Shown here: piece by piece, positions 1 through 54,443 of the stretch
Numbering within the stretch: the stretch's first letter is position 1
Layout: every line of letters starts with the position of its first letter
Source: a virus
Virus record (IMG/VR): IMGVR_UViG_3300047321_000419
Coordinates: 1 to 54,443 of that record
Reading direction: 5' to 3' (one strand)
Length of the DNA: 54,443 nt
Position numbers and translations under genes: made by a program
The notes under the pieces: model-generated
The model's input: only the letters and a program-made list of their open reading frames with translations
Databases searched by the model: none
What the model was told of the DNA's origin: nothing

Positions 1-1057
1 CCGATTCGTGCGGGATAATCCAGACCTTGCCGTCGATCATGCAGTAATTGTGGAAGGTGTAGCCGTCGAGATTGGGCACATCGACCTGCAAATAATGCTT
101 GAGCACCCACTCGGACTTGAACACCGACTCGAACAGCCATTCGCCGGCAAATTCAGGGGCGACGGAAACCCCCTTGGAAAGTTCGGACATTAACGTCGGG
201 AAATTCTTACACGCCGCCATCAACACGCCGCCTGGGGGTGACGGCACGCGGCAGGTCGCATCGGTAAAGAACGTCTGCCCGTTCGGCAGGATTCGCATCT
301 CGTTCGAGAAGAACCCGCGGTATTCGTGCTCGCTGAAATACTCGCCCAGCGCCTTGATGATGCGTTGAGTTTCCTTCGGTAATTTCTTCACGCTGTCGCA
401 GACATAGCCCCAATAGCGGGCATCCTTGGTTTCGGCGCCGACCACGAACGGCTCGACCATCTGGCCATCGCACCACCAGCAATCGATACCGATTTCGAGC
501 GCATCGGGAATGGCATCCTCGACCACGAAACGAACCTTATCGCCCAGCGGCCCGAGGCGATTCTTGAGGTGGTTGTATTCGGTGAGCCAGTCCTGCGCCT
601 TGCGGGTTTCCATGTCGCCGCGGAACACGCTCACCTTGACGTAGGTTTCGGGGTGTTCTTCGACGTAATCCTTGACGTGATCTATGCCCTGGATTTCGAC
701 CGTTCTGATGACATCCAGGTCGTGCTCAACGAGAAATTCCTTGAGCTTCCAGCGGTCGGTTTCGAGCTGGTTAGCGTCGCTCGCGCCGATGGTTGGAATC
801 CCTAGATTGCGGGCGGCCATCTCATAATCGTTCAGGTAGAGGTCCGGCACCACCACGAGGTCGGGCGGCTTGGTAATCATCTCGCGAATTGGCTCATTGA
901 CCCGCTCGATACCGGGTATCCCGACGCCGACCGCCTGTTCCTGCGAACGCGGGAAGGCATTCGTCCAACTGGAGAAGTAGCGCACGTCGTAGGCCTTGCT
1001 CAGATGGCGGGCTACATCGGGGAACAGGCCGGAATCGATTACCAGGGCTGATGGCAT
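1..1057 (-). CDS. ATP-grasp family enzyme, partial (left copy)
   Basis: The gene runs off the left edge of the window, so its 3' end is missing; it covers about the first 352 residues of the complete copy at 49549-50778. The start ATG (1057) has the same context as in that copy. It shows the same ATP-grasp signature: a YVKVS lysine strand, a VEDAIPDALEIGID segment and an NEMR...DATCRVPSPPGG end. It is transcribed away from the head operon. The upstream intergenic DNA, which carries the promoter for the plus-strand genes, is almost identical in the two copies, whereas the coding parts differ at many third positions. Confidence 0.7.
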   Translation of the reverse strand, partial: MPSALVIDSGLFPDVARHLSKAYDVRYFSSWTNAFPRSQEQAVGVGIPGIERVNEPIREMITKPPDLVVVPDLYLNDYEMAARNLGIPTIGASDANQLETDRWKLKEFLVEHDLDVIRTVEIQGIDHVKDYVEEHPETYVKVSVFRGDMETRKAQDWLTEYNHLKNRLGPLGDKVRFVVEDAIPDALEIGIDCWWCDGQMVEPFVVGAETKDARYWGYVCDSVKKLPKETQRIIKALGEYFSEHEYRGFFSNEMRILPNGQTFFTDATCRVPSPPGGVLMAACKNFPTLMSELSKGVSVAPEFAGEWLFESVFKSEWVLKHYLQVDVPNLDGYTFHNYCMIDGKVWIIPHES

Positions 1058-1061
1058 GAAT

Positions 1062-1089
1062 TTGACAGTAGCACGATGTTTGATATATG
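1062..1089 (+). promoter_or_regulatory. Sigma70-like promoter of the head operon (P1)
   Basis: A perfect -35 TTGACA (1062-1067), a 16-nt spacer and a -10-like TATATG (1084-1089) lie just upstream of the first head-operon gene, in the gap between divergent genes. The hexamers and most of the spacer are shared with the second promoter at 4114-4141. The motif AACGCTGTTCGA lies downstream at 1099-1110 and recurs inside the spacer of the second promoter. Confidence 0.7.
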
Positions 1090-1129
1090 GCTAAATCAAA
1101 CGCTGTTCGAGTGCTACGGAGTAACGATT

Positions 1130-1327
1130 ATGCCTCGCGGTTCAAACGGTCCAGAAGAAATTTCCCGCATTCGCTCGGGTGAGCAGAATCTACGCGACGG
1201 CGACCGCGCCAGCGGCAAGAAAGGCTCCGGCGTCGGCATCGACGGCTTCGGCCCCGGCAATAAAAAGGGGTTTGGCTCCGGCTCGATGCAGAAGAACCCG
1301 TCGCGGATGCCCAAGCCGAGTTTCTAA
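1130..1327 (+). CDS. Small Gly/Lys-rich protein of unknown function
   Basis: A 65-residue protein chosen to start at ATG 1130 after a GGAG-like site; an in-frame upstream ATG (1076) would overlap the promoter. It is rich in Gly, Lys, Ser and Arg with a KKGFGSGSMQKNP tail and no hydrophobic core, so it is probably disordered or nucleic-acid binding. Its C-terminal motif resembles that of the small protein at 7715-7867 (KKGYGSMNTQK). The intact duplicate at 50851-51048 argues that it is a real gene. First gene of the head operon; function unknown. Confidence 0.6.
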   Translation: MPRGSNGPEEISRIRSGEQNLRDGDRASGKKGSGVGIDGFGPGNKKGFGSGSMQKNPSRMPKPSF

Positions 1328-1657
1328 ATGGCGGCCGGCGTAACAGTAGTTACGAACGGGCGGACGTGGACGCTGGCCTATGCCGCGTCCTCGGCGAATA
1401 CCCTGCCGTACACGCTCTGTACCTACGACCTCATCCCGAAGCGCATCGTAGTAGTCACGGATAGCACGGGCGTCGGCGATGGCAAGGTCATCATCCAGAG
1501 TCAGCCCGTCGGCGGCACCGCGGTCGACGTGTACCGGCAGGTTTGGCAGGGTGCGGACTCGGCTCCGACCGAGCAACGACCGAATACTCAATGGTCAGGC
1601 CCGATTGTCGTGACCCAATTTGACATCGGCGCGGAATTGCTCATCGATTTGGTCTAA
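1328..1657 (+). CDS. Hypothetical beta-rich structural protein
   Basis: A 109-residue protein whose ATG follows directly on the previous stop codon. The sequence alternates hydrophobic and polar residues (VTVVTNGRTWTL, KRIVVVTDSTGVGDG), as in a small beta domain, with no signal peptide or membrane segment. It sits upstream of the portal and is kept in the right copy at 51049-51378 with few amino-acid changes. A minor virion or decoration role is a guess from position only. Confidence 0.6.
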   Translation: MAAGVTVVTNGRTWTLAYAASSANTLPYTLCTYDLIPKRIVVVTDSTGVGDGKVIIQSQPVGGTAVDVYRQVWQGADSAPTEQRPNTQWSGPIVVTQFDIGAELLIDLV

Positions 1658-2035
1658 ATGCCCGAGCTACGAATGACCGTGAGCTTCGAGTTGGACGGCA
1701 TCCCGCTCGCGGACATGCCAATCGTCCGACGCTACATCGTCGGCGAAGCCTCTACGGGAATGACGCTAATTGCCACGCCCGACAGCGGCACTGTGACATA
1801 CCATCCGATTCAGGCTGCGATTATGCCGACGCTGGGGACTATCTGCGTCACCAATGACCAGCCGGCCAATCTTACAATCAACCAGAATACACCGCTGCCG
1901 ATGAATGCAGGCGGCTTCGTGCTCATCATGGGGGCCAACCTCGCGCAGGGCACGCCGAATCTCAACGTCACGTACAATAATCCGTCGTCCACCGACAATG
2001 TGACTCTGGGTATCCCTGTCCTCGGGGGTACTTAA
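1658..2035 (+). CDS. Hypothetical beta-rich structural protein
   Basis: A 125-residue protein whose ATG is immediately adjacent to the preceding stop. It is predicted beta-rich (LRMTVSFELDGIPL, a GGFVLIMGANLAQGT loop). The duplicate at 51379-51756 differs most around residues 30-50, more than its neighbours do, which would suit a surface-exposed loop. No family recognised; translationally packed with the portal gene, so a virion role is likely. Confidence 0.6.
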   Translation: MPELRMTVSFELDGIPLADMPIVRRYIVGEASTGMTLIATPDSGTVTYHPIQAAIMPTLGTICVTNDQPANLTINQNTPLPMNAGGFVLIMGANLAQGTPNLNVTYNNPSSTDNVTLGIPVLGGT

Positions 2036-3898
2036 ATGCGCACCATCTCCATCGGGGAGGGCAAGCCGCTCAAAATCAACATGGAGCAGCGTGCCCGCCT
2101 CAAGGAACGCCTCCAGAACAAGCATAAGAGCGCCCTCCAGGCCCGTGCGGGCTGGGAGAATATGTGCCGCACGGCGATCCGCATGTACCAAGGGACGCCG
2201 CCCGACCACGCGCGCTGGCTCCCGTTCGAGAATGCACCTGTAATCGAGGTGACAATCGGTGCGATGGCCTGCGATACGGTCATCTCCCAGGCCGAAGACC
2301 TAATCTTTCAAGTCAAGCCGCCGCTTACCATCCGTTCGCGCAAGGGCGATTTCGATGACGCCGCCGATGCTGTACAGGATTTGGTCAATCATGGCGTCGA
2401 ATCGGGCTTCTGGAACTTCGAGCCCGGCGTCAAAGAAGGCCTAATCGACCAAGTTCAACTCGGAATGGTCGTGGGATACATCCCCTACACCAAGACGGTG
2501 CGCAAAACCGATGTTCGTGAGGTCGTGACGTTTGGGCCGAAGATTCATTGTCTCGCGCCCGAGGACTTCATCATTCCGGCCAACGCCACCAAGAACATCC
2601 AGACCTGTGAATTTGCCACGATGCGGATGTGGATGGGCAAGGATGAACTGAATCTTCGCGCCCGACTCAATAACTGGACGGTTGACGACGCTGCGGCGCC
2701 CGATACGTCGAGCGTAATTCGCGCTGACCGCCTGCGCACGGCCGGCGTCAGTGGCGGGCAGCTAGATACCAAGCCGCCGGTCACGATCGGCGACACTTTC
2801 ATCTATTTCGACATCGACGACGACGGCATCGAGGAGGATTTAGAGGTTATCTGGAACATGACTTCGGGGAACGTCCTGAAGGTCATGTATAACCGCTACG
2901 ATTCGCGGCCGTTCGTGCTCGAATGCTACCAAGACCGCGCCCACACGGCGTTCGGCCTCGGCGTGCTCGAAATGATGATCCCGTTCGAGCGCGAAGTGAC
3001 CGAGATTCACAATAACCACATCTGGAATATGATGCTCGCCAACACGAAGATGTACCAGGGGCCGTCCACGGGGATGCAGGAGACCACCGCGGCGTATCCG
3101 GGCAAGTACCTCATCAACGATGAGGGTCCGCAGGGCGAAATCAAGGTTTTGGACATGGGCGAAGTGAACGGCACGGCGATTCAGGCCGAGTCCGTGGTCA
3201 CAGCGATGGGCCGCGAGCGCGTAGGAACGACGCAAATCAGCGCCCCGATTCGCTCGTCAAGCCGCACGCCCGGCATTTCGATGCTCTCGATGATGCAGCA
3301 GGCCAACCGGCGTTTCACGCATCCGTTCAACAACATGCGGAACTTTGGTTCGCAGGTCGTGATGCACTGTCTATTCCGGCTACAGGAGCAGGTCCGCGCC
3401 GGGAACAAGGATGTCGCCAAAAAGCTGAAAGAAATCCTCGGCGACGATAAGGCGGGGCTGGTCATCGACCTGTTCAAGCACAGCAAGGTCGAATTGACCG
3501 ACGCGTTGGATATTCAACTCACCGCCTCCAGTGTCAGCGTCAATCGCGAGTCCGACCGGCAGAACATGGTCATGCTGGCGACGCAGATTTGGCCGGTTTA
3601 CTTCCAGGCCATGACCCAACTCGCGCAATTCATCGCGCAGCCGCCGTTCCCCGGCGCTGATAAGGTAGCGAAGCAGGCCGAGAAGGCCATCAACAAGTTC
3701 TTCGGCAAGATTCTCAAGACCTTCGACCAGATTAGCGATGTTCGCAGCCTCCAGGTGGACCTCGACGACATCCAGCCGATGATGCAGCAACTCGGCATGG
3801 AGCAGGTACCCGGCCAGCTCAACGGCATGATGAGCCAGATGGGCCAAAACGGTGCTGGTCCCGGTGGCCCGCCGCAAGGCCAGCCGCCGATGCACTGA
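2036..3898 (+). CDS. Portal protein
   Basis: A 620-residue protein that would form the dodecameric head vertex through which DNA is packaged and ejected. The N-terminal third has the podovirus-type portal pattern: an early basic helix, then FENAPVIEVTIGAMACDTV followed by QAEDLIF, and later the APEDFIIPANATKN segment typical of the clip/wing region. The C-terminus is Met/Gln/Gly/Pro-rich. Length and position before a scaffold-like gene and the capsid gene fit. The stop overlaps the next start (TGATG). The second copy (51757-53613) is 618 residues and differs mainly by conservative changes and at the tail. Confidence 0.85.
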   Translation: MRTISIGEGKPLKINMEQRARLKERLQNKHKSALQARAGWENMCRTAIRMYQGTPPDHARWLPFENAPVIEVTIGAMACDTVISQAEDLIFQVKPPLTIRSRKGDFDDAADAVQDLVNHGVESGFWNFEPGVKEGLIDQVQLGMVVGYIPYTKTVRKTDVREVVTFGPKIHCLAPEDFIIPANATKNIQTCEFATMRMWMGKDELNLRARLNNWTVDDAAAPDTSSVIRADRLRTAGVSGGQLDTKPPVTIGDTFIYFDIDDDGIEEDLEVIWNMTSGNVLKVMYNRYDSRPFVLECYQDRAHTAFGLGVLEMMIPFEREVTEIHNNHIWNMMLANTKMYQGPSTGMQETTAAYPGKYLINDEGPQGEIKVLDMGEVNGTAIQAESVVTAMGRERVGTTQISAPIRSSSRTPGISMLSMMQQANRRFTHPFNNMRNFGSQVVMHCLFRLQEQVRAGNKDVAKKLKEILGDDKAGLVIDLFKHSKVELTDALDIQLTASSVSVNRESDRQNMVMLATQIWPVYFQAMTQLAQFIAQPPFPGADKVAKQAEKAINKFFGKILKTFDQISDVRSLQVDLDDIQPMMQQLGMEQVPGQLNGMMSQMGQNGAGPGGPPQGQPPMH

Positions 3899-4107
3899 TG
3901 GCATCCGCCGACCGCCTCATTTTCGCCTGCCGTGAAGATACCGCCGTCCTGACTTCGCTCCGCGCGTGGCTCAACGAGGAGCGCGAAGCCGTCAAGGAAC
4001 GCGCCATCAAAGAGAAGAATCCCGACGAGGTTTTAGCGCTCCAGGGCGCTGCCGCAGTACTCCGCAAACTGGCCGATACCATCGCCTCGCAGGTCAAGAC
4101 AAAGTGA
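3898..4107 (+). CDS. Small helical protein downstream of the portal
   Basis: A 69-residue charged, predicted all-helical protein (LRAWLNEEREAVKERAIKEK). Its start overlaps the portal stop by one base, so translation is probably coupled. In the right copy the same gene (54010-54219) is separated from the portal by the anti-defence cassette and gains its own Shine-Dalgarno. The function is not recognised; small coiled-coil proteins at this place in other phages are usually uncharacterised. Confidence 0.65.
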   Translation: MASADRLIFACREDTAVLTSLRAWLNEEREAVKERAIKEKNPDEVLALQGAAAVLRKLADTIASQVKTK

Positions 4108-4113
4108 CGATGC

Positions 4114-4141
4114 TTGACAGTAGAACGCTGTTCGATATAAG
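4114..4141 (+). promoter_or_regulatory. Sigma70-like promoter upstream of the scaffold-like gene (P2)
   Basis: TTGACA (4114-4119), a 16-nt spacer and TATAAG (4136-4141) lie 9 bases before the ATG of the next gene. The spacer contains GAAC-GCT-GTTC, a short dyad that could be an operator. The sequence from the -35 through the first codons is identical in the right copy (54226-54253) while surrounding coding DNA has drifted, which suggests selection on the element. Confidence 0.75.
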
Positions 4142-4150
4142 GCATTAACT

Positions 4151-5035
4151 ATGCCCGACGAAAAGCCTAACGATACGGCGCAGAGTACGCAGGACGAAAA
4201 GCTCGCCGGTCTAGTCTCCGCATCGGTCACGGCAGGCCTTAAAACAGCGTTACCCGAATTGATGAAGCCGTTCGCTGACCAAATCAGCGGCGGGTCGATT
4301 CGTCGGGAAGTTCAGCAGCCCGTTCGCGCGGCGCAGATTGCCGAAGTGAACGAGGACGACATCGCCAACGCCATCGAGGCGGGCGACAAGGCTCTAGTCT
4401 CGAAGTTGCTCAAGCAGCAACGCGCGGCAGACCGTCAGCGGGCTGATCAGGAAATCCAGCGCATCACCTCAGCGGGTGGCGCGGCCTTCGGGTCCGTCTC
4501 GCGCATGGCGGCGGACAAACTCCCCTACTACTCGGGCAAATATAAAAAGCTCATCGACGAAAAGGTCGAGCAGTTTCAGGCGAATAACCCCGGCGTGATG
4601 GTCACGCCCGAGCACTACAAAGCGGCGCACGACATCGTTGTCGGCGAGAATATCTCAGACATTCAGGCGGCAGACCGCGAAGAAGCTATTAGGAAGTCCC
4701 GCGAGCCCGACCCGGCATTGCTGCCTAGCGGTGGTCGCGTAGACATCGAGCCCGAGGAGCGTGAGCCCGAAAACTTGGCTCAGGTACTCGCCGGCGACTG
4801 GAAAAAGGAATTTCGCGTCAAGCAGCGCGCCGTCGGTGGCCGTAGCGACGACGAAGAATTGCGCAAATTCGGCATCGCTGGCGGCCTGAAAGAGTTTGTC
4901 GGCGTTCGTAAGCAGATGGAAGCGCTGGAAGACGAGACCAACGGAAGTCTCGGACTCGACCGCGATTTTCGAGACGAAAATGGCAGAGTCCACGGGGACC
5001 GGGGATTCCAGCCCAAGACGGCGAGGTTTGAGTAA
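4151..5035 (+). CDS. Scaffold-like capsid assembly protein
   Basis: A 294-residue acidic, Gln/Glu/Lys-rich, mostly helical protein with no membrane segment, lying between portal and capsid genes as scaffolds do. Residues 75-125 are strongly helical (LLKQQRAADRQRADQEIQRI), and the C-terminal half is rich in acidic and basic residues, as in scaffolds that bind the inner coat. It has its own promoter 9 bases upstream. Assignment rests on position and composition rather than a specific motif. The stop overlaps the next start (TAATG). Confidence 0.55.
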   Translation: MPDEKPNDTAQSTQDEKLAGLVSASVTAGLKTALPELMKPFADQISGGSIRREVQQPVRAAQIAEVNEDDIANAIEAGDKALVSKLLKQQRAADRQRADQEIQRITSAGGAAFGSVSRMAADKLPYYSGKYKKLIDEKVEQFQANNPGVMVTPEHYKAAHDIVVGENISDIQAADREEAIRKSREPDPALLPSGGRVDIEPEEREPENLAQVLAGDWKKEFRVKQRAVGGRSDDEELRKFGIAGGLKEFVGVRKQMEALEDETNGSLGLDRDFRDENGRVHGDRGFQPKTARFE

Positions 5036-23686: not shown

Positions 23687-24520
23687 ATGATCGGCAAAGC
23701 TACTGACCACACTGGCGTCGAGCGCAAACTGAATTACCTCTGGGACGGCCCGACACGGATTCCGCACTACCAGCCCTTGAGGACATTCGGGGCCACCTCG
23801 GCGCCGCCGTTTATGACGATCATCGGTAAATGCCCGCGCATCACCGACCAAGGCCAACAGGGCGCGTGCACGGGCCATTCGTCCGTCGCTCCGTACTACA
23901 TCGCCGAGGTCAACGCGGGTCGCACGCCGTTCATTCCATCGCCGGCATTCATCTACTACAACGAGCGGCTAATCAACGGCCAGACCGACCAGGACGCGGG
24001 CGCTTCCATCTCCGACATCTATCGCGCGGGGAACAAGTACGGCATCTGCCCCGACAACCTGATGCCTTACGATGAGAGCGATTTCACGACACCGCCGCCA
24101 CAGATCGCCTACGCTACGGCAGTATCCCACCGCGCGCATATCTACGCGCCGGTGCCGCAGCTTCTCGAGAACCTGATCGGCTGCCTCCATCACGGCGGCT
24201 TTCCGGTGAGCATCGGCGTCAGCGTCTATCAGAGCTTTATGGACGCGAGAGACGGCAACATTCCGATGCCGGGGGCGAAGGAGAATCTGCTTGGCGGGCA
24301 CGCGCTGAGCTTGGTCGGCTACAACAATACCGATCAGCCGCAGCCCTGCCCCTACCCGATGGCCGACGCCGAGGGCGTCATCACGATACCGCCTAAGAGT
24401 TTCGTGTTCCGTAATTCCTGGGGCATTCTCTGGGGCCAGAAGGGCTACGGGTTCTTCCCGTTCGCGTACATGCTGGACTCGGGGCTGTCGTCAGATTTCT
24501 GGATGATTCGCAGTATATGA
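23687..24520 (+). CDS. Papain-like (C1) cysteine protease
   Basis: A 277-residue protein with the papain triad in order: Cys61 in DQGQQGACTGHS (compare the papain QGxCGSCW box), His205 in LLGGHALSLVGYN, and Asn243 in FRNSWGILWG. The C1 fold is also indicated by PSPAFIYYNERL. There is no signal peptide or propeptide, so it acts in the cytoplasm or after lysis, or enters the virion. Possible roles are cleavage of host proteins or of a phage precursor. C1 proteases are uncommon but known in large-genome phages. Confidence 0.85.
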   Translation: MIGKATDHTGVERKLNYLWDGPTRIPHYQPLRTFGATSAPPFMTIIGKCPRITDQGQQGACTGHSSVAPYYIAEVNAGRTPFIPSPAFIYYNERLINGQTDQDAGASISDIYRAGNKYGICPDNLMPYDESDFTTPPPQIAYATAVSHRAHIYAPVPQLLENLIGCLHHGGFPVSIGVSVYQSFMDARDGNIPMPGAKENLLGGHALSLVGYNNTDQPQPCPYPMADAEGVITIPPKSFVFRNSWGILWGQKGYGFFPFAYMLDSGLSSDFWMIRSI

Positions 24521-24696
24521 GCAACGGCGGCGAAGCCGAGGTCATTCCGGTAGCGCCCGACGCGCCGGCCAGCGGCAAGGACTTCGACGACCGCCTGCCC
24601 AAGCCTAGCGGAGACGGGCCGTCGGAGGTCATCGAGATTCCCGAAGGGCCTCCTGCCGCAGTTTACAGGCGTTGCACTCTCCGCAGCCGGCGTTGA
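24517..24696 (+). CDS. Small acidic/proline-rich protein
   Basis: A 59-residue ORF in ATGA overlap with the protease stop. The first 45 residues are Pro/Glu/Asp-rich and the end is Arg-rich (RRCTLRSRR). Its last 68 bases run antisense through the 3' end of the queC gene. The Arg-rich end may simply reflect that overlap. Low-complexity; moderate doubt. Confidence 0.4.
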   Translation: MSNGGEAEVIPVAPDAPASGKDFDDRLPKPSGDGPSEVIEIPEGPPAAVYRRCTLRSRR

Positions 24697-25183
24697 TGTA
24701 GCAACTCACCGTTTTCTCAATCGGCACGCCTCGCCGCTTGGCCTCGGCGATAACCATTCGCTTCGTCATGTTGATCAGCGGGCGCTTGATCTTAACCTCG
24801 CGTCCTTGAGCAGCCTGCATTTGCTCGAAAGCGATAAAGAACGCCTCGCGACAGTCAGGGTAATCGGCCTGATCGTCGGCATTTGAGCCGATATAGATGC
24901 GACCGCCAGAATCAGGCAGCATCGCCGCCGCCAAGCTCAGGAACATCGCGTTGCGACCTGGAATCAGGTTTGTCCCGCTAGCGTCCACCGAGCGCGGAAA
25001 TTCCGTTACGTGGACCCGCGCCGATTCGATCCCTAGTTCGTCCAGCGCTTGAAGTTCATAGCGATTCTGTCCGTAATCGACGCTGAGCATAGCCACTGAA
25101 TCCTCATCTCGCTTCGCTAAGAGAGCGCAGAGCGTTGAGTCGATTCCGCCAGAAACGAGAACGACTGTTGAGCATTTATACAT
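24629..25183 (-). CDS. queC: 7-cyano-7-deazaguanine synthase (QueC)
   Basis: A 184-residue protein. I start it at the Met before YKCSTVVLV because an AAGGGAG lies upstream and the N-terminal strand then matches the family. It converts 7-carboxy-7-deazaguanine to preQ0 with ATP and ammonia. Seen are the PP-loop SGGIDST, SVDYGQ, the GRNAMFLSLAA segment, ADYPDCR, and the zinc site CYINAGCGECNACKLR. It is slightly shorter than cellular QueC. It overlaps the DpdA-like gene by 67 bases and ends the minus-strand operon. With that gene it points to 7-deazaguanine DNA modification. Confidence 0.9.
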   Translation of the reverse strand: MYKCSTVVLVSGGIDSTLCALLAKRDEDSVAMLSVDYGQNRYELQALDELGIESARVHVTEFPRSVDASGTNLIPGRNAMFLSLAAAMLPDSGGRIYIGSNADDQADYPDCREAFFIAFEQMQAAQGREVKIKRPLINMTKRMVIAEAKRRGVPIEKTVSCYINAGCGECNACKLRQEALRESR

Positions 25184-25758
25184 CTCACCCACTCCCTTAG
25201 TTGAGGCCAATTTGCATCGAAGCCGAAGGCTAATCGCGTGCCGTCAACCGAATCGGCCCCCGCCCTCGCCGCCAAGATAATTCGCTCTGGTGTATTCACG
25301 CGGCCATAGTGCGCCCATACGCCACGAGCGCGGGCCGCTTGGACAAGTTGCGCAGCGAACGCGCTCTCTTTCCAAGGAATCGAGCCGCCGATAAATATGC
25401 CGTCGATGTCCTGCCAAGGCGTTGATTCGACGGTCAGCCCGTCTTGAGCTACGAGCGTCGCGCGATGGCCCTCGGAACGCAGCGTTCTTAAGGCGGATTC
25501 GGCCCGTCTGAGCGTTTCCGGCATGTCATACGGTACGTCGGGCGCGTTGACGAACAAGCAAGCCTCACGCGGTCCTTTGCGGTCCAGCCAGCGCAGGTAC
25601 TTGTCGAGATTGAAAGCATCGGGATGGCGGAAGCAGCCCGTATCTGCCGCCCAGGTCGCACCCTCGGGCAGGCGATTGCCGATGCGGGGCGTCAGCAGAA
25701 AGCCGAAATGCGGCTCGATGGCGACTGGCCCTCGCACCGCTCCGCTTAGGTAAATCAT
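25117..25758 (-). CDS. dpdA: DpdA-like DNA guanine transglycosylase
   Basis: A 213-residue TGT-fold protein of the compact phage type, expected to exchange guanine in DNA for a 7-deazaguanine. The start is the ATG in an ATGA overlap with the upstream stop. Characteristic segments are WAADTGCFRHPDAF, CLFVNAPDVPYD, VAQDGL, DGIFIGGSIPWK, WAHYGRVNT and GADSVDGTRLAFG; the Asp residues of ADTG, APD and SVDG correspond to the TGT active-site region. It is adjacent to queC. The earlier pathway enzymes (FolE, QueD, QueE) are not seen here, so the host probably supplies precursor. Confidence 0.8.
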   Translation of the reverse strand: MIYLSGAVRGPVAIEPHFGFLLTPRIGNRLPEGATWAADTGCFRHPDAFNLDKYLRWLDRKGPREACLFVNAPDVPYDMPETLRRAESALRTLRSEGHRATLVAQDGLTVESTPWQDIDGIFIGGSIPWKESAFAAQLVQAARARGVWAHYGRVNTPERIILAARAGADSVDGTRLAFGFDANWPQLREWVRCINAQQSFSFLAESTQRSALS

Positions 25759-29255: not shown

Positions 29256-29987
29256 ATGAAGCCGTATTACGAGGATGAGGCGGTGACGATTTACCACGGC
29301 GATTGTCGCGAGGTGCTGCCGGGGCTGGAGCCGGTCGCCCACGTCATCACCGACCCGCCCTACGAGGCCGAAGCTCACACACAACAGCGTCGTGTGAAAC
29401 GGGGCGGGGGTGTGATGGAGTGCGAGCCCCTGTCCTTCGCTCCGATGTGGGGCGCGATGCGGGACTTTACGGGCGCTCAAGTCCGACGATTAGTCAAGCG
29501 CTGGATTCTTACCTTCTGCCAAATCGAAGCGGCCCCGCTATGGCGGAAAGTGTACGAAGATCAAGGATTAGTCTACCGACGCACGTGCATCTGGGTGAAG
29601 CCTGACGGTATGCCACAATATTCAGGCGACAGGCCCGGGATGGGCTATGAAACGTTACTGGCCATGCACACGGCGGGCGCGTGCCGATGGAATGGCGGCG
29701 GTCGCCACGGTGTATTTATCGTCAACAAGAGCGATGGTGCGGGCGCTAGCCCACATCCCACGCAGAAGCCGCTCCCGTTGATGACGATGCTGGTCTCACT
29801 ATTTACGGACGAGGGCGAAATCATCCTCGACCCATTCATGGGCAGCGGAACGACGCTGCGCGCGGCGAAAGACCTCGGGCGCAAGGCCATCGGCATTGAG
29901 ATTGAGGAACGCTACTGCGAGATAGCCGCTAAGCGAATGTCCCAATCTGTCTTTGACTTCAGGAGTTCCAGTGTACTTGGGGAGTGA
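29256..29987 (+). CDS. DNA adenine/cytosine-N4 methyltransferase (beta class)
   Basis: A 243-residue protein after GAGGGGTAACGA. Catalytic motif IV is DPPY (33-36) and the SAM-binding motif I is DPFMGSGTT (192-200), so the order IV then I indicates the beta class of amino-methyltransferases. The middle, with PHPTQKPLPL before motif I, fits. It probably methylates adenine N6 or cytosine N4 in phage DNA to block restriction. No restriction partner is adjacent, so it is an orphan enzyme. First gene of the rightward early operon. Confidence 0.9.
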   Translation: MKPYYEDEAVTIYHGDCREVLPGLEPVAHVITDPPYEAEAHTQQRRVKRGGGVMECEPLSFAPMWGAMRDFTGAQVRRLVKRWILTFCQIEAAPLWRKVYEDQGLVYRRTCIWVKPDGMPQYSGDRPGMGYETLLAMHTAGACRWNGGGRHGVFIVNKSDGAGASPHPTQKPLPLMTMLVSLFTDEGEIILDPFMGSGTTLRAAKDLGRKAIGIEIEERYCEIAAKRMSQSVFDFRSSSVLGE

Positions 29988-31330: not shown

Positions 31331-31686
31331 ATCGCAACGCGGTAGCAAACGCAAAGCTTAAGGTTCGCAGCGAGCACGAGGAGCTATTCGCGATGCAACT
31401 CAAGGCGGCGAAGCTCCGCGGCTGGGAGCGCAACTGGAGATTTGATCCTGTGCGGCGTTGGCGCCTCGATTTTGCCCATTTCGTTTATCGACTTGCCGTC
31501 GAAATCGAGGGCGGTACGTGGATTAAGGGCCGACACGTGACGGGGGTCGGATTTCGCAACGATTGCGAGAAATATAACGCGGCGACGCTCAAGGGCTGGC
31601 GGATATTCAGGTTCACGGCCGAGATGGTCTCGAGTGGCGAAGCGCTCAGGGTCACAGAGGCGGCGCTGGAGAAATTCGCCCGATGA
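31309..31686 (+). CDS. PD-(D/E)XK endonuclease
   Basis: A 125-residue protein with the core of a small PD-(D/E)XK nuclease. D54 in RRWRLDFAH, E65-x-E67 in LAVEIEGG, and later RHVTGVGFRNDCEKYNAA and GWRIFRFT match the phage endonuclease family related to very-short-patch/DUF559 types. It could resolve recombination intermediates or degrade host DNA. It lies between a replication module and a cytosine methyltransferase and overlaps both neighbouring genes. Confidence 0.75.
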   Translation: MVDPASLDRNAVANAKLKVRSEHEELFAMQLKAAKLRGWERNWRFDPVRRWRLDFAHFVYRLAVEIEGGTWIKGRHVTGVGFRNDCEKYNAATLKGWRIFRFTAEMVSSGEALRVTEAALEKFAR

Positions 31687-32297
31687 GGCCGTTGGTATGG
31701 CTCGACCTCTGCTCGGGGCTTGGCGGGGCATCGCAGCCCGCTTTAGACCGGGGCTGGAAGGTTATCCGCGTCGACATCGACCCTCGATTCAAGCCCGACA
31801 TCGTGGCGGATGTAAGAAACTTGCCCTTGAGGCGGTTTCACGTCGATGTGTTGTGGGCGAGTCCGCCCTGCCAGGAGTTTAGCAAAATCGGGATGCGCTG
31901 TTTTTATCCCGAGCCGATTGACCCTGATTTATCGATTGCGGAAGGCATTAAGGCCGAGATTGGCCGATTGGCGCCGCAGACTTGGGTGATCGAGAACGTA
32001 TGGGCGGCTCGTCCATATCTATCGCGATTATTTGGGCCGGTGGCGGCGAAGCCGTTCGGGCATGCGCTGTGGTCGAACGTCGCGCTGTTACTTCCGAACA
32101 TTGAGCCGCATAAGGGCGGCCGACGAGCATTCGCGCATCTCAAAAAGAGCGGTGCGCACAATCGCTCATTCATCCCAAACATGCGCCATGCGCCAGCCGA
32201 AGCCGCGAAGATTCCCTACGAAATCGGCGAAGCAATTTGCCGCGCAGTAGAGAGTCGCACAGAGCAAGATGCGACCGAAAATAGAGTGGAGGGGTAA
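31683..32297 (+). CDS. DNA cytosine-C5 methyltransferase-like protein (compact)
   Basis: A 204-residue protein. Motif I is LDLCSGLGG (8-16), the catalytic Cys63 is in WASPPCQEFS (motif IV), and VIENV (102-106) is motif VI. It is shorter than standard C5 methyltransferases (about 300 or more residues), so the target-recognition domain must be minimal or missing. It overlaps the nuclease gene (ATGA). It probably methylates cytosine in phage DNA, although an altered activity is possible. Confidence 0.75.
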   Translation: MRPLVWLDLCSGLGGASQPALDRGWKVIRVDIDPRFKPDIVADVRNLPLRRFHVDVLWASPPCQEFSKIGMRCFYPEPIDPDLSIAEGIKAEIGRLAPQTWVIENVWAARPYLSRLFGPVAAKPFGHALWSNVALLLPNIEPHKGGRRAFAHLKKSGAHNRSFIPNMRHAPAEAAKIPYEIGEAICRAVESRTEQDATENRVEG

Positions 32298-49548: not shown

Positions 49549-50778
49549 CTAGGGCACAAATCCTAGCTTCGCCGCTTCTTTGATTTCGTCCTCAATATCT
49601 TCGAGCGTGCCCTTATCGCAGTCCAGCCGATTCGCGCTCGCGGCCTCGCAGTTCTCGGTCGCCATATCAAAGCCCTCTTTTAACCCGCCCCAGCCGAGCG
49701 CCGAGCCAAATTCGGCCATCTCCGATTCGTGCGGGATAATCCAGACCTTGCCGTCGATCATGCAGTAATTGTGGAAGGTGTAGCCGTCGAGATTGGGCAC
49801 ATCGACCTGCAAATAATGCTTGAGCACCCACTCGGACTTGAACACCGATTCGAATAGCCATTCGCCCGCAAATTCGGGGGCGACGGAAACCCCCTTGGAA
49901 AGTTCGGACATTACCGTCGGGAAATTCTTACACGCCGCCATCATCACGCCACCCGGAGGCGACGGCACGCGACAAGTTGCATCGGTAAAGAACGTTTGCC
50001 CATCCGGCAGGATTCGCATCTCGTTGGAGAAAAAGCCGCGATACTCATGCTCGGCAAAATACTCGCCCAAGGCCTTCAGAATGCGCTGAGTTTCCTTCGG
50101 GAGCTTCTTCACGCTGTCGCAGACATAGCCCCAGTAGCGGGCGTCTTTAGTCTCGGCACCGACCACGAACGGCTCGACCATCCGATCATCGCACCACCAG
50201 CAATCGATACCGATTTCGAGGGCGTCTGGAATGGCATCCTCGACCACGAAGCGAACCTTGTCGCCCAACGGCCCGAGGCGATTCTTGAGATGGTTGTATT
50301 CGGTGAGCCAGTCCTGCGCCTTGCGGGTTTCCATATCGCCGCGGAACACGCTCACCTTGACGTAGGTTTCGGGGTGTTCTTCGACGTAATCCTTGACGTG
50401 ATCGATGCCTTGGATTTCGACCGTTCGAATTACGTCTAAATCGTGCTCAACGAGAAATTCCTTGAGCTTCCAGCGGTCGGTTTCGAGCTGGTTAGCGTCG
50501 CTCGCGCCGATGGTTGGAATGCCGAGATTGCGCGCCGCCATCTCGTAATCGTTCAGATAGAGGTCCGGCACCACTACGAGGTCGGGCGGCTTCGTGATCA
50601 TCTCGCGAAGCGGCTCGTTGACCCGCTCGATGCCGGGTATCCCGACGCCGACCGCCTGCTCCTGTGAGCGCGGGAAGGCATTCGTCCAACTGGAGAAGTA
50701 ACGCACGTCGTAGGCCTTGCTCAGATGGCGCGCCACATCCGGAAACAGGCCGGAATCGATTACCAGGGCTGATGGCAT
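49549..50778 (-). CDS. ATP-grasp family enzyme (complete copy)
   Basis: A 409-residue protein. The N-terminus is Rossmann-like (PSALVIDSGLFPD, DLVVVPDLYLND). The ATP-grasp core follows: RWKLKEFL, the catalytic-lysine strand YVKVSVFRGD, VEDAIPDALEIGIDCWW, and EMRILPDG...TDATCRVPSPPGG, with Glu and Asp positions for Mg-ATP as in carboxylate-amine ligases of the GARS type. It should ligate a carboxylate to an amine. It is the only minus-strand gene within a long stretch of plus-strand structural genes. The substrate is unknown. Confidence 0.75.
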   Translation of the reverse strand: MPSALVIDSGLFPDVARHLSKAYDVRYFSSWTNAFPRSQEQAVGVGIPGIERVNEPLREMITKPPDLVVVPDLYLNDYEMAARNLGIPTIGASDANQLETDRWKLKEFLVEHDLDVIRTVEIQGIDHVKDYVEEHPETYVKVSVFRGDMETRKAQDWLTEYNHLKNRLGPLGDKVRFVVEDAIPDALEIGIDCWWCDDRMVEPFVVGAETKDARYWGYVCDSVKKLPKETQRILKALGEYFAEHEYRGFFSNEMRILPDGQTFFTDATCRVPSPPGGVMMAACKNFPTVMSELSKGVSVAPEFAGEWLFESVFKSEWVLKHYLQVDVPNLDGYTFHNYCMIDGKVWIIPHESEMAEFGSALGWGGLKEGFDMATENCEAASANRLDCDKGTLEDIEDEIKEAAKLGFVP

Positions 50779-50782
50779 GAAT

Positions 50783-50810
50783 TTGACAGTAGCACGATGT
50801 TTGATATATG
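50783..50810 (+). promoter_or_regulatory. Right copy of promoter P1
   Basis: Same TTGACA (50783-50788), 16-nt spacer and TATATG (50805-50810) as at 1062-1089. Sequence conservation here, compared with the drifted flanking coding DNA, supports its function. Confidence 0.7.
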
Positions 50811-50850
50811 GCTAAATCAAACGCTGTTCGAGCGCTACGGAGTAACGATT

Positions 50851-51048
50851 ATGCCTCGCGGTTCAAACGGTCCAGAAGAAATCGCACGTATCCGGTCGGG
50901 TGAGCAGAATCTACGTGACGGCGACCGCGCCAGCGGCAAGAAAGGCTCCGGCGTCGGCATCGACGGCTTCGGCCCCGGCAATAAAAAGGGGTTTGGCTCT
51001 GGCTCGATGCAGAAGAACCCCTCGCGGATGCCCAAGCCGAGTTTCTAA
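50851..51048 (+). CDS. Small Gly/Lys-rich protein (right copy)
   Basis: Duplicate of 1130-1327; 65 residues with a single Ser-to-Ala change (EEIS to EEIA), despite many synonymous differences. The conservation supports a real gene with purifying selection. Confidence 0.6.
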   Translation: MPRGSNGPEEIARIRSGEQNLRDGDRASGKKGSGVGIDGFGPGNKKGFGSGSMQKNPSRMPKPSF

Positions 51049-51378
51049 ATGGCAGCCGGAGTCACCGTCGTCACGAACGGGCGGACGTGGACGCTGACCT
51101 ATGCGGCGTCCTCGGTGAATACCCTGCCGTATACGCTCTGCACCTATGACCTCATCCCGAAGCGCATCGTAGTCGTTACGGATAGCACGGGCGTCGGCGA
51201 TGGCAAGGTCATCATTCAGAGTCAACCCGTCGGCGGCACTGCGGTTGACGTGTACAACCAAGTTTGGCAAGGTGCGGACTCGGCTCCGACTGAACAACGC
51301 CCGACTACTCAATGGTCAGGCCCGATTGTCGTTACCCAATTCGACATTGGCGCGGAATTGCTCATCGATTTGGTCTAA
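51049..51378 (+). CDS. Hypothetical beta-rich structural protein (right copy)
   Basis: Duplicate of 1328-1657, 109 residues, with a few substitutions (for example LAYAASSAN to LTYAASSVN, VYRQ to VYNQ). Same overlap with its neighbours. Confidence 0.6.
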   Translation: MAAGVTVVTNGRTWTLTYAASSVNTLPYTLCTYDLIPKRIVVVTDSTGVGDGKVIIQSQPVGGTAVDVYNQVWQGADSAPTEQRPTTQWSGPIVVTQFDIGAELLIDLV

Positions 51379-51756
51379 ATGCCCGAACTACGTATGACCG
51401 TCAGTTTCGAGCTAGACGGCATCCCACTGCCGGATATGCCGATTGTGCGGCGCTACATCGTCGGTGAAGCGCTGACCAATTCGACCATCATCGCAACGCC
51501 TGATAGCGATGCGGTTACGTTTCATCCGATTCAGGCCGCGATTATGCCAGCGCTGGGGACTATCTGCGTCACCAACGACCAGCCGGCCAATCTCGAAATC
51601 AACCAGAATGCGCCGCTGCCGATGAATGCGGGCGGCTTCGTGCTCATCATGGGCGCAAACCTCGCGCAAGGCACGCCGAATCTCAACGTCACCTACAACA
51701 ATCCGTCGTCCACCGACAATGTGACTCTGGGTATCCCCGTCCTTGGGGGTACTTAA
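51379..51756 (+). CDS. Hypothetical beta-rich structural protein (right copy)
   Basis: Duplicate of 1658-2035, 125 residues. Changes concentrate in residues 30-50 (GEASTGMTL versus GEALTNSTI), which suggests a variable exposed loop. Confidence 0.6.
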   Translation: MPELRMTVSFELDGIPLPDMPIVRRYIVGEALTNSTIIATPDSDAVTFHPIQAAIMPALGTICVTNDQPANLEINQNAPLPMNAGGFVLIMGANLAQGTPNLNVTYNNPSSTDNVTLGIPVLGGT

Positions 51757-53613
51757 ATGCGCACCATATCCATCGGGGAGGGCAAGCCGCTCAAGATCAA
51801 CATGGAGCAGCGGGCCCGCCTCAAGGAACGCCTCCAGAACAAGCACAAAAGCGCCCTTCAGGCCCGCGCTGGCTGGGAGAATATGTGCCGCACGGCGATC
51901 CGCATGTACCAGGGGACGCCGCCCGACCACGCGCGCTGGCTACCATTTGAAAACGCGCCGGTAATCGAGGTCACCATCGGCGCGATGGCCTGCGATACGG
52001 TCATCTCACAGGCCGAAGACCTTATATTTCAGGTCAAGCCGCCGCTCACTATCCGCTCTCGCAAGGCCGACTTCGATGATACCGCCGACGCGGTGCAGGA
52101 TTTGGTTAATCATGGCGTCGAATCGGGCTTCTGGAACTTCGAGCCCGGCGTAAAAGAAGGTCTCATCGACCAAGTGCAGCTCGGCATAGTGGTCGGCTAC
52201 ATCCCGTACACCAAGACCGTCCGCAAAACCGACGTGCGCGAGGTCGTGACATTCGGCCCGAAGATTCATTGTCTCGCTCCTGAAGATTTCATCATCCCGG
52301 CCAACGCGACCAAGAACATCCAAGATTGCGAATTTGCGACGATGCGGATGTGGATGAACAGGGAAGAGTTGAATCTGCGCGCTCGCCTCAATAACTGGAC
52401 GGTCGATGATGCCGCGGCGCCCGATACGTCGAGCGTGATTCGCGCAGACCGCCTTCGCACGGCCGGCGTGAGCGGCGGACAGCTCGATACCAAGCCGCCA
52501 GTCACGATCGGCGACACTTTCATCCTTTTCGACATCGACGACGACGGTATTAACGAAGATTTGGAGGTTATCTGGAACATGACTTCGGGGAACATCCTGA
52601 AGGTCATGTATAACCGCTACGATTCGCGGCCGTTCGTGTTGGAATGCTATCAGGACCGCGCCCACACGGCATTCGGCCTCGGCGTGCTCGAAATGATGAT
52701 CCCGTTCGAGCGCGAAGTAACCGAGATTCACAATAACCACATCTGGAACATGATGTTGGCCAACACGAAGATGTACCAGGGTCCGTCCACGGGGATGCAG
52801 GAGACCACCGCGGCGTATCCGGGCAAGTACCTCATCAACGACGAGGGTCCACAGGGCGAAATCAAGGTTCTGGACATGGGCGAAGTCAACGGAACAGCGA
52901 TTCAGGCCGAGTCCGTCGTCACGGCTATGGGTCGCGAGCGCGTAGGAACCACGCAAATCAGCGCCCCGATTCGTTCGTCGAGCCGCACCCCCGGGATCTC
53001 GATGCTCTCGATGATGCAGCAGGCCAACCGGCGCTTCACGCACCCGTTCAATAACATGCGGAACTTCGGTTCCCAGGTCGTGATGCACTGTCTCTTTCGG
53101 CTACAGGAGCAGGTTCGCGCGGGCAACAAGGATGTCGTCAAGAAGCTCAAGGAAATCCTTGGCGACGATAAGGCGGGGCTGGTAATCGACCTGTTCAAGC
53201 ACAGCAAGGTCGAATTGACCGATGCGCTCGATATTCAGCTAACCGCCTCCAGCGTCAGCGTCAATCGCGAGTCCGACCGACAGAACATGGTCATGCTGGC
53301 GACGCAGATTTGGCCGGTCTACTTCCAGGCCATGACGCAGCTCGCGCAGTTCATCGCGCAGCCGCCGTTCCCCGGCGCCGACAAGGTGGCGAAGCAGGCC
53401 GAACGCGCGATCAATAAGTTTTTCGGCAAGATTCTCAAGACGTTCGACCAGATTAGCGACGTTCGCAGTCTGCAAGTTGACCTCGACGACATCCAACCGA
53501 TGATGCAGCAGCTCGGGATGGAGCAGATGCCGGGCCAGCTAAACGGCATGATGAGCCAGATGCAGCAGCCTAACGGCGCTGGCCCTGGTGGTCCGCCGCA
53601 AGGCCTGCATTAG
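51757..53613 (+). CDS. Portal protein (right copy)
   Basis: A 618-residue version of the portal at 2036-3898. Substitutions are scattered and mostly conservative (e.g. MWMGKDEL versus MWMNREEL, FIYFDIDDDGIEE versus FILFDIDDDGINE). The C-terminus has a short QQP insertion and lacks the PPM end. Here the gene ends in TAG and is followed by the anti-defence cassette rather than the coupled small helical gene. Confidence 0.85.
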   Translation: MRTISIGEGKPLKINMEQRARLKERLQNKHKSALQARAGWENMCRTAIRMYQGTPPDHARWLPFENAPVIEVTIGAMACDTVISQAEDLIFQVKPPLTIRSRKADFDDTADAVQDLVNHGVESGFWNFEPGVKEGLIDQVQLGIVVGYIPYTKTVRKTDVREVVTFGPKIHCLAPEDFIIPANATKNIQDCEFATMRMWMNREELNLRARLNNWTVDDAAAPDTSSVIRADRLRTAGVSGGQLDTKPPVTIGDTFILFDIDDDGINEDLEVIWNMTSGNILKVMYNRYDSRPFVLECYQDRAHTAFGLGVLEMMIPFEREVTEIHNNHIWNMMLANTKMYQGPSTGMQETTAAYPGKYLINDEGPQGEIKVLDMGEVNGTAIQAESVVTAMGRERVGTTQISAPIRSSSRTPGISMLSMMQQANRRFTHPFNNMRNFGSQVVMHCLFRLQEQVRAGNKDVVKKLKEILGDDKAGLVIDLFKHSKVELTDALDIQLTASSVSVNRESDRQNMVMLATQIWPVYFQAMTQLAQFIAQPPFPGADKVAKQAERAINKFFGKILKTFDQISDVRSLQVDLDDIQPMMQQLGMEQMPGQLNGMMSQMQQPNGAGPGGPPQGLH

Positions 53614-53617
53614 AGAT

Positions 53618-53633
53618 ATTCCCTTCGACGGGA
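53618..53633. repeat. Left inverted repeat of the anti-defence cassette
   Basis: ATTCCCTTCGACGGGA, five bases after the portal stop. It is the exact reverse complement of 53993-54008 (16 of 16). The pair brackets the Acb2/Tad1-like gene, and neither arm occurs at the equivalent place in the left copy. Confidence 0.85.
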
Positions 53634-53658
53634 CTTAACTAAAAGGAGGGCACAAAAC

Positions 53659-53985
53659 GTGGCCCAAATTGAAGAAGTCAGCAAAGAAGAACAGATTCGG
53701 CGAATAAACGAAGAAGTCTCGCATCGGATTGAGTTTGGCGAGTACGGATTCCTCAACTTTCAGAAAGGCCCGCGCAATGAAGTGGGCGTCAACGGTCTAT
53801 TCATTGCTGAAGACGTGATGCCGAAATTGGTGGAGCATCTGAAAAGCCTAAACAAAGTACTCCCATCCCGCGAGACTTCGCTCGCCATTACTAAACTCGA
53901 AGAATGCACGATGTGGCTCTTGGAGCGGCGGCGGCAGCGCGAGACGCAATCAGTACTCGGAACCTATAAGCCTCATCAGTCGTAA
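53659..53985 (+). CDS. Acb2/Tad1-type cyclic-nucleotide sponge (anti-CBASS / anti-Thoeris)
   Basis: A 108-residue protein with a GTG start after AAGGAGGG. It matches the Acb2/Tad1 hairpin family: GPRNEVGVNGLFIAEDVMPK, then LPSRETSLAITKLEECTMWL and an RRRQRETQSVLGT end, the conserved Arg/Glu-Leu/Ala-Leu-Thr-Lys-Leu-Glu-Glu-x-x-Met-Trp core. In studied phages such proteins bind cyclic di- and trinucleotides or gcADPR-type signals and stop CBASS or Thoeris effectors. Only the right genome copy has it, inside inverted repeats. Confidence 0.8.
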   Translation: MAQIEEVSKEEQIRRINEEVSHRIEFGEYGFLNFQKGPRNEVGVNGLFIAEDVMPKLVEHLKSLNKVLPSRETSLAITKLEECTMWLLERRRQRETQSVLGTYKPHQS

Positions 53986-53992
53986 TTAATTC

Positions 53993-54008
53993 TCCCGTCG
54001 AAGGGAAT
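53993..54008. repeat. Right inverted repeat of the anti-defence cassette
   Basis: TCCCGTCGAAGGGAAT, ending 1 base before the ATG of the next gene. It also supplies that gene's Shine-Dalgarno (GAAGGGA), which the left copy lacks because it uses a TGATG overlap instead. Confidence 0.85.
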
Positions 54009-54009
54009 T

Positions 54010-54219
54010 ATGGCCTCCGCTGACCGACTTATCTTTGCCTGCAAAGAAGACACCGCCGTTCTGACTTCGCTCCGCGCGTGGCTCAATGAGGAGCGCGAGA
54101 CGATCAAGGAACGCGCCATCAAAGAGAAGAACCCCGACGAGATTTTGGCGCTCCAGGGTGCCGCAGCCGTGCTGCGCAAACTGGCCGATACCATCGCTCA
54201 GCAGGTCAAGACCAAGTGA
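54010..54219 (+). CDS. Small helical protein downstream of the portal (right copy)
   Basis: Duplicate of 3898-4107, 69 residues, with a few changes (CREDT to CKEDT, EEREAV to EERETI). Its start context differs from the left copy because of the upstream cassette. Confidence 0.65.
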   Translation: MASADRLIFACKEDTAVLTSLRAWLNEERETIKERAIKEKNPDEILALQGAAAVLRKLADTIAQQVKTK

Positions 54220-54225
54220 CGGTGC

Positions 54226-54253
54226 TTGACAGTAGAACGCTGTTCGATATAAG
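54226..54253 (+). promoter_or_regulatory. Right copy of promoter P2
   Basis: TTGACA (54226-54231), 16-nt spacer with GAAC-GCT-GTTC, and TATAAG (54248-54253), identical to 4114-4141 through the following start codon. Confidence 0.75.
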
Positions 54254-54262
54254 GCATTAACT

Positions 54263-54443
54263 ATGCCCGACGAAAAGCCTAACGATACGGCACAGAACGC
54301 ACAGGACGAAAAGCTCGCCGGTCTAGTCTCCGCATCGGTCACCGCAGGTCTCAAAACAGCGTTACCCGAATTGATGAAACCGTTCGCTGACCAAATCAGC
54401 GGCGGGTCGATTCGTCGGGAAGTTCAGGCGCCCGCACCTCGCG
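54263..54443 (+). CDS. Scaffold-like protein, partial (right copy)
   Basis: The first 60 codons of the gene at 4151-5035, cut by the right edge. The last dozen bases begin to differ more from the left copy (CGCCCGCACCTCGCG). Confidence 0.6.
   Translation, partial: MPDEKPNDTAQNAQDEKLAGLVSASVTAGLKTALPELMKPFADQISGGSIRREVQAPAPR

Follow-up and report, generated by a model that had tools for sequence, protein, structure and literature searches.

An overlapping compact dpdA–queC couplet as a probable host-dependent 7-deazaguanine DNA-modification module in a viral genome

Architecture of the dpdA–queC couplet

The window, by which we mean the whole stretch of DNA analysed here, is a virus record of 54,443 bp (G000) classed as linear. 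When the two ends of the record were compared, bases 1-4322 and 49722-54434 were found to be 91% identical, with a single break in the match. Rather than a real duplication, this would be the outcome of a contig that went once round a permuted genome of ~49.7 kb and continued into a second, co-occurring strain. Because its ends overlap at this identity, the record is probably a complete genome of ~49.7 kb. Its large terminase gave four weak record matches, with no host indicated. The dpdA–queC couplet is present once and has the following features.

25117..25758, minus strand: compact DpdA-like gene of 213 aa, from the ATG at 25758 to the last base of its stop codon at 25117
24629..25183, minus strand: queC of 184 aa, from the ATG at 25183 to the last base of its stop codon at 24629
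25210, minus strand: possible earlier queC start, TTG
25117..25183, minus strand: 67-nt overlap of the dpdA 3' end with the queC 5' end
25192..25198, minus strand: Shine-Dalgarno-like AAGGGAG, within dpdA and 8 nt 5' of the queC ATG
25755..25758, minus strand: ATGA, in which the stop of a short upstream frame overlaps the dpdA start

An earlier note on this DNA had described a QueC gene and a DpdA-like gene overlapping in one operon. Our analysis agrees: the frames overlap by 67 nt, QueC is identified by Pfam, the DpdA-like protein belongs to a PHROG family and aligns with phage DpdA in hhalign, and the overlap suggests that the two genes may be translationally coupled. Overlapping couplets in the same gene order were found at five loci, namely the window, L003, L013, L094 and L096, with overlaps that are, in order of size, 8, 10, 40, 40 and 67 nt, so that the pairing appears to be more than chance. 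Between L003 and L013, dN/dS was low for both dpdA (0.09/0.68) and queC (0.26/1.60). Convergent with the window queC lies a papain-like cysteine peptidase gene (23687-24520, plus strand; Peptidase_C1, E 8.4e-7).

Searches of the whole record recovered QueC and gave no match for FolE (PF01227), QueD (PF01242) or, as the family of QueE, Radical_SAM (PF04055), each of which gave matches in most control genomes. The lack of FolE, QueD and QueE proposed in the earlier note thus extends to all 54,443 bp. QueF, canonical phage DpdA and the Vut_1 transporter were likewise not found in the whole-record search. The same note had seen no second modifying enzyme, a statement that has to be corrected in view of two further frames.

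29256-29987, plus strand: N4/N6-type DNA methylase (E 1.6e-31)
31683-32297, plus strand: short C5-methylase-like ORF (E 0.00024, 21.1 bits, just below the cut-off of 22)

With the N4/N6-type methylase and the C5-methylase-like ORF, the couplet genome would carry several DNA-protection layers.

The compact DpdA-like protein

The compact protein was assigned to PHROG 15826 (phrog_15826, function unknown; E 7.5e-48) and matched no Pfam, NCBIfam or PADLOC family. The canonical DpdA of phage Sonali also had no NCBIfam or PADLOC match, so these models are narrow. Relatives in several actinophage records carry the annotation 'DpdA-like tRNA-guanine transglycosylase'.

Motifs of the window protein are D39-T-G-C-F, P73-D74, Q105-D-G, G124-G125, H150-x-G-R and S170-x-D172-G. 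Among the non-redundant homologues, D39 is kept in 76/76 and D74 and D172 in 77/77, as are P73, Q105, F122, G124, G125, H150, G152, R153, N155 and G173. The key Asp residues on which the earlier note had made its reading depend are therefore retained, an assignment made by motif and spacing, not by residue-by-residue structural superposition. Judging from the motifs, we take D39, D74 and D172 to be D102, D156 and D280 of Zymomonas TGT.

The compact protein has motifs I-VI of phage DpdA in the same order and with near-equal spacing, the equivalents in the canonical DpdA of Sonali (gp87) being D37, D73, H103, G124-G125, H155 and D174. All six sit where they do in the N-terminal ~180 residues of phage DpdAs of ~300 aa, and the final ~100 residues of those proteins have no counterpart, which bears out the earlier description of a compact DpdA without the extra domains of the longer form. 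An hhalign comparison with five phage DpdAs gave E 1.9e-6 and a probability of 89.6% over 92 columns that cover the first four motifs only; the match of the last two is spacing judged by eye. One-to-one hhalign matches with phage DpdA had probabilities of 74.1%, 60.3% and 5.3%. On the matching motif order and spacing together with the profile alignment, the compact protein is thus equivalent to the catalytic N-terminal ~180 residues of phage DpdA (~300 aa).

The structural model is a TIM barrel (pLDDT 94.2). Its longest structural alignments are with TGT structures (194-197 residues, Z 14.3-14.6), with which ribulose-phosphate epimerases tie in Z (14.3-14.9). Foldseek placed 7ui4, the DNA preQ0 insertase DpdA, at rank 3 (E 5e-5, TM 0.57), behind transaldolases at ranks 1-2. 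The predicted fold by itself does not decide for TGT/DpdA. Against the PDB, sequence profile A2 found no TGT among five weak matches (E >= 0.08); profile A6 found none either, and its match to Prod 1 (E 0.0018) was taken as chance, followed by a fucosidase at E 1.

The couplet QueC

The window queC product matched Pfam QueC (PF06508) with E 8.8e-42 and 143.4 bits (cut-off 22). It retains SGGIDS, YGQ, IPGRN, YPDC, SCY and four Cys, with motif names taken from PMC13329287. Its YxQxHxxE site reads YGQNRYE, keeping Y, Q and E and losing His. This His is absent from all five couplet QueCs and also from those of HVTV-1, Vibrio D484 and one Acinetobacter record and from Cap9, whereas most other aligned sequences retain it.

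Under the NCBIfam equivalog model of QueC (TIGR00364), the window protein scored 105.8 bits against a cut-off of 150.3, and all five couplet QueCs fell below that cut-off (103.3-129.6 bits). By comparison, the QueCs of L065 and Sonali, which belong to fuller pathways, reached 197.9 and 185.2 bits. The window protein is therefore filed as QueC family only, not as a proven preQ0 synthase.

The QueC model (pLDDT 83.8, built with 8 sequences) fits Cap9 best (9nto_B; Z 20.2, 170 residues, 2.2 A), ahead of canonical QueC (Z 17.9 and 17.3, 177 residues), and its 184 aa are close to the length of the minimal QueC fold of Cap9 (~185 aa). In contrast, phmmer placed the sequence nearer QueC (71.9 and 56.4 bits) than Cap9 (51.5), and a 15-row tree put it in no well-supported group. 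At the residue level it is QueC-like, with SCY and YPDC where Cap9 has SCE and YYDC; the Glu that follows the first zinc Cys in Cap9 (CE for CY) is absent. L003 and L013 QueCs have YWDC. Scores below the cut-off, taken with the Cap9-like model fit, make other chemistry possible. The window protein also retains Y37, R77, Y108 and Y162, whose counterparts are reported to be essential in E. coli QueC (PMC13329287).

A further couplet-type QueC piece lies in L097 (1973-2458); it is 55% identical to that of L003 and is without an intact start region, and no compact DpdA match was found within the 8.4 kb of L097.

Relatives of the compact DpdA and their supply genes

A single-protein scan of viral contigs retrieved no relative with the window DpdA and one, L003, with the window QueC; a scan with the L003 DpdA retrieved L013. 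Alignment searches reached further: in viral contigs they yielded 194 related stretches, of which the top 80 were used, and in genome contigs 14 compact-DpdA loci, 12 being actinobacterial by name. Before counting, we dropped nine duplicate loci (L001, L002, L004, L005, L012, L014, L015, L095 and L098) and matches of fewer than 120 profile positions, which leaves the split phiG7 copy (L011) outside, and collapsed sequences at least 0.9 alike. The last of these steps reduced 102 sequences to 77 non-redundant loci. The set contains the window and five GenBank phage loci, as well as L094 and L096, both found via QueC.

A VUT-type gene lies within 1.5 kb of the compact dpdA, on the same strand, at 44/77 loci. 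QueC is near dpdA at 7/77, and VUT and QueC occur together at none. For the 69 loci fetched by dpdA alone, the corresponding counts are 42, 4 and 0. The chance of such zero overlap is 0.0018 for the 77 loci and 0.020 for the 69, figures that ignore kinship. VUT-like frames in these loci were confined to the vicinity of dpdA (44 near, 0 farther away): 26 overlap the dpdA start from upstream by 1-158 nt, another 6 stop no more than 24 nt from it, 7 stop at a distance of 226-412 nt and the remaining 5 seem to lie downstream of dpdA. Examples are L016:9520-10029, L032:9475-10041 and L005:7408-7941. Four of five VUT-type members scanned with Pfam Vut_1 scored above the cut-off and one below. We take Vut_1 to be the COG1738 family of E. 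coli YhhQ, the preQ0 transporter. That YhhQ transports preQ0 in E. coli has been reported (PMC5372724), and we infer an import role for the VUT gene: adjacent YhhQ/VUT genes are likely the precursor importers of 'DpdA-only' phages. Of 50,697 GenBank phage records, 37 contain a relative of the ReqiPine5 VUT protein; counting the best 30 of these 37, at least 15 of the 23 compact-DpdA records have one, with some phages entered twice and many closely related. Hutinet et al. 2019 reported YhhQ to be uncorrelated with any phage group (PMC6884629).

Other loci have more of the pathway. L065 and L071 show the order QueC-QueE-QueD-dpdA, and L064 (9869-11573) has compact dpdA-queE-queD with no QueC found in its 26.5-kb contig; the pathway of L064 would end at CDG (7-carboxy-7-deazaguanine) unless the host adds QueC. 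The compact DpdA is the only TGT-like gene found beside these gene sets. Neither FolE nor QueD was found in the five couplet records, the other four of which (15.6-77.9 kb) are perhaps fragments. The gene just upstream of dpdA in L013, the only one among the couplet records with a radical-SAM match, matched weakly (E 3.8e-4) and was not read as QueE. At 25/77 loci VUT, QueC, QueD and QueE are all absent nearby, and some of these contigs stop less than 500 bases upstream.

The compact DpdA is thus a family whose supply gene varies by locus and, occurring beside differing supply genes, it has the look of a small core enzyme whose supply partner can be exchanged. In Sonali, R29Z and phiG7 a compact copy stands alongside canonical DpdA and pathway genes; that of Escherichia phage phiG7 (L011:7875-8521) is split across two frames. 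Because phages with canonical DpdA, such as Sonali, also carry the compact copy, its role in them may be a different one.

Eight of the 77 loci have a PAPS-reductase-like PP-loop gene no more than 3 kb from the compact dpdA (among them L003:3056-3796, L005:8652-9569, L100:8581-9402 and L103:8579-9400), the one in L003 with a weak PADLOC SspD match (E 7e-6); none was found in the window record. A TIM-barrel-annotated protein near a short QueC in Vibrio phage 1.081.O was rejected as a relative: it gave no profile match, and its Cys motif resembles radical SAM.

Proposed function of the couplet and alternative explanations

Taken together, we consider it probable that the couplet is a host-dependent 7-deazaguanine DNA-modification module, in which a single-domain transglycosylase with swappable supply genes is here served by a minimal QueC acting on host CDG. 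The analysis established the genes with their overlap and family, the predicted fold, the conserved motifs, the gene content and the pattern of supply genes; catalysis, the DNA substrate, the use of host CDG, channelling, the inserted base and an anti-restriction role we infer. The host queuosine pathway would provide CDG, its use being the simplest reading of the gene content. Phage QueC, co-translated with DpdA, would activate CDG with ATP and convert it to ADG and probably on to preQ0. The single TIM-barrel domain of the compact DpdA would then swap chosen guanines in phage DNA for the deazaguanine base in a TGT-type double-displacement reaction, and the modified base would shield the DNA from restriction. 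Among the relatives the core enzyme would stay constant, with supply by a YhhQ/VUT-type importer, QueC alone, QueC-QueE-QueD, or QueE-QueD.

A precedent for so small a gene set is Enterobacteria phage 9g, whose dpdA and gat-queC conferred resistance on plasmid DNA in wild-type and delta-queC E. coli, an effect not seen in delta-queD (PMC6884629). What counts against the proposal is the atypical QueC, the lone L097 piece, and the little or no modified G of DpdA-only phages: none in Orion, ~0.02% in 7-11 and ~0.13% in MED16, with dADG in small amounts in two of such phages and none in a third (PMC6884629, PMC8306585).

If the proposal is true, phage guanine modification takes much less than the five genes of the known sets, since a single-domain enzyme of ~205 aa and one supply gene would suffice, and the compact enzyme would be a very small DNA base-exchange tool. 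The 'DpdA-only' phages would be explained as well, because many may import the base, and the base in DNA would be predicted to follow the supply gene. Parts of these couplet and compact DpdA findings may, reportedly, be covered by Cui et al. 2023 (NAR).

The base put in by the couplet would be preQ0, as proposed in the earlier note, or ADG. It is possible, though doubtful, that an otherwise identical module inserts ADG or another CDG derivative, the minimal QueC performing the amidating half-reaction only. ADG is the QueC intermediate en route to preQ0 (PMC13329287), so that dADG could be the inserted base, and dADG is known from phage DNA (PMC6884629, PMC8306585). Cap9, the best match of the QueC model, performs the amide-forming step only (PMC13279940) and, like all five sub-cut-off couplet QueCs, has no His in YxQxHxxE. 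However, the HVTV-1 QueC also lacks this His, yet HVTV-1 DNA contains dPreQ1, which needs preQ0 (PMC6884629); the His is therefore no marker of product, and we rejected its loss as a sign of ADG. The four retained residues that match essential positions of E. coli QueC also speak for the complete reaction. The scant modification measured in DpdA-only phages, the split phiG7 copy and the solitary L097 QueC would suit a remnant that is non-functional, or functional only in special hosts, but this seems unlikely given the open overlapping frames in five contigs, the full motif conservation and the low dN/dS.

The TGT superfamily fold would also accommodate a pair that acts on host or phage tRNA rather than DNA. 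We regard this as quite unlikely, since the compact profile aligns with phage DpdA and gave no alignment with E. coli TGT, the protein has 213 aa against the 375 aa of E. coli TGT, and no tRNA gene was found in the window. Very unlikely, in our view, is a phage counterpart of Cap9-Cap10, in which a QueC with a TGT-fold partner attaches host CDG to a protein, or the pair counters deazaguanine-dependent immunity (type IV CBASS, Qat) by depleting CDG or by acting on the mark, instead of or besides DNA modification. The anatomy is the same, a minimal QueC and a TGT-family protein with no upstream gene (PMC11996544), and the QueC model fits Cap9 best. Nevertheless, the window QueC keeps QueC-like residues (SCY, YPDC, IPGRN), the Asp residues of the compact DpdA are conserved in every homologue examined, and a scan of nine window proteins recognised no CD-NTase. 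Moreover, the compact DpdA mostly occurs without QueC and often by a transporter, which a QueC-dependent reader would not need. Cap10 was absent from the best 50 matches in either search of the PDB by the DpdA model, which excludes nothing.

Comparison with known systems

Hutinet et al. 2019 grouped phages into those with DpdA and the pathway, DpdA alone, and the pathway without DpdA; neither a QueC-DpdA-only group nor a tie of compact DpdA to YhhQ was seen in the available text (PMC6884629). Such a module, or compact DpdA with YhhQ, was likewise not found in the largely open-access literature searched, including the available portions of PMC8306585, PMC13279940, PMC11888242, PMC8651126 and PMC11996544.

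Like Escherichia phage CAjan and Mycobacterium phage Rosebush, which have dPreQ0 and encode DpdA with FolE-QueD-QueE-QueC, the couplet combines QueC with a DpdA-type TGT homologue of shared motifs. Unlike them, its genome lacks FolE, QueD and QueE, its DpdA lacks the C-terminal ~100 residues, and its QueC is shorter and atypical. Reliance on a host or outside precursor would be shared with the DpdA-only Salmonella phage 7-11, Pantoea phage MED16 and Mycobacterium phage Orion, to which the couplet adds QueC; none of these phages is among the 23 compact-protein records. In phage 9g, two phage genes suffice in CDG-making E. coli as the couplet would in its host, but 9g has the whole pathway, a glutaminase-fused QueC and the product dG+. 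Type IV CBASS Cap9-Cap10 also joins a minimal QueC, using CDG, to a TGT-family protein, whereas the compact DpdA keeps the catalytic Asp motifs and mostly lacks QueC, and the couplet QueC has QueC-like motifs.

The compact family itself includes Arthrobacter phage proteins Sonali gp81 and Aoka gp40 and Mycobacterium phage GreaseLightnin gp55, which are 34-44% identical over most of the protein. These have no overlapping queC: in GreaseLightnin and Aoka the compact DpdA is paired with a VUT gene, and in Sonali it comes in addition to a full canonical set.
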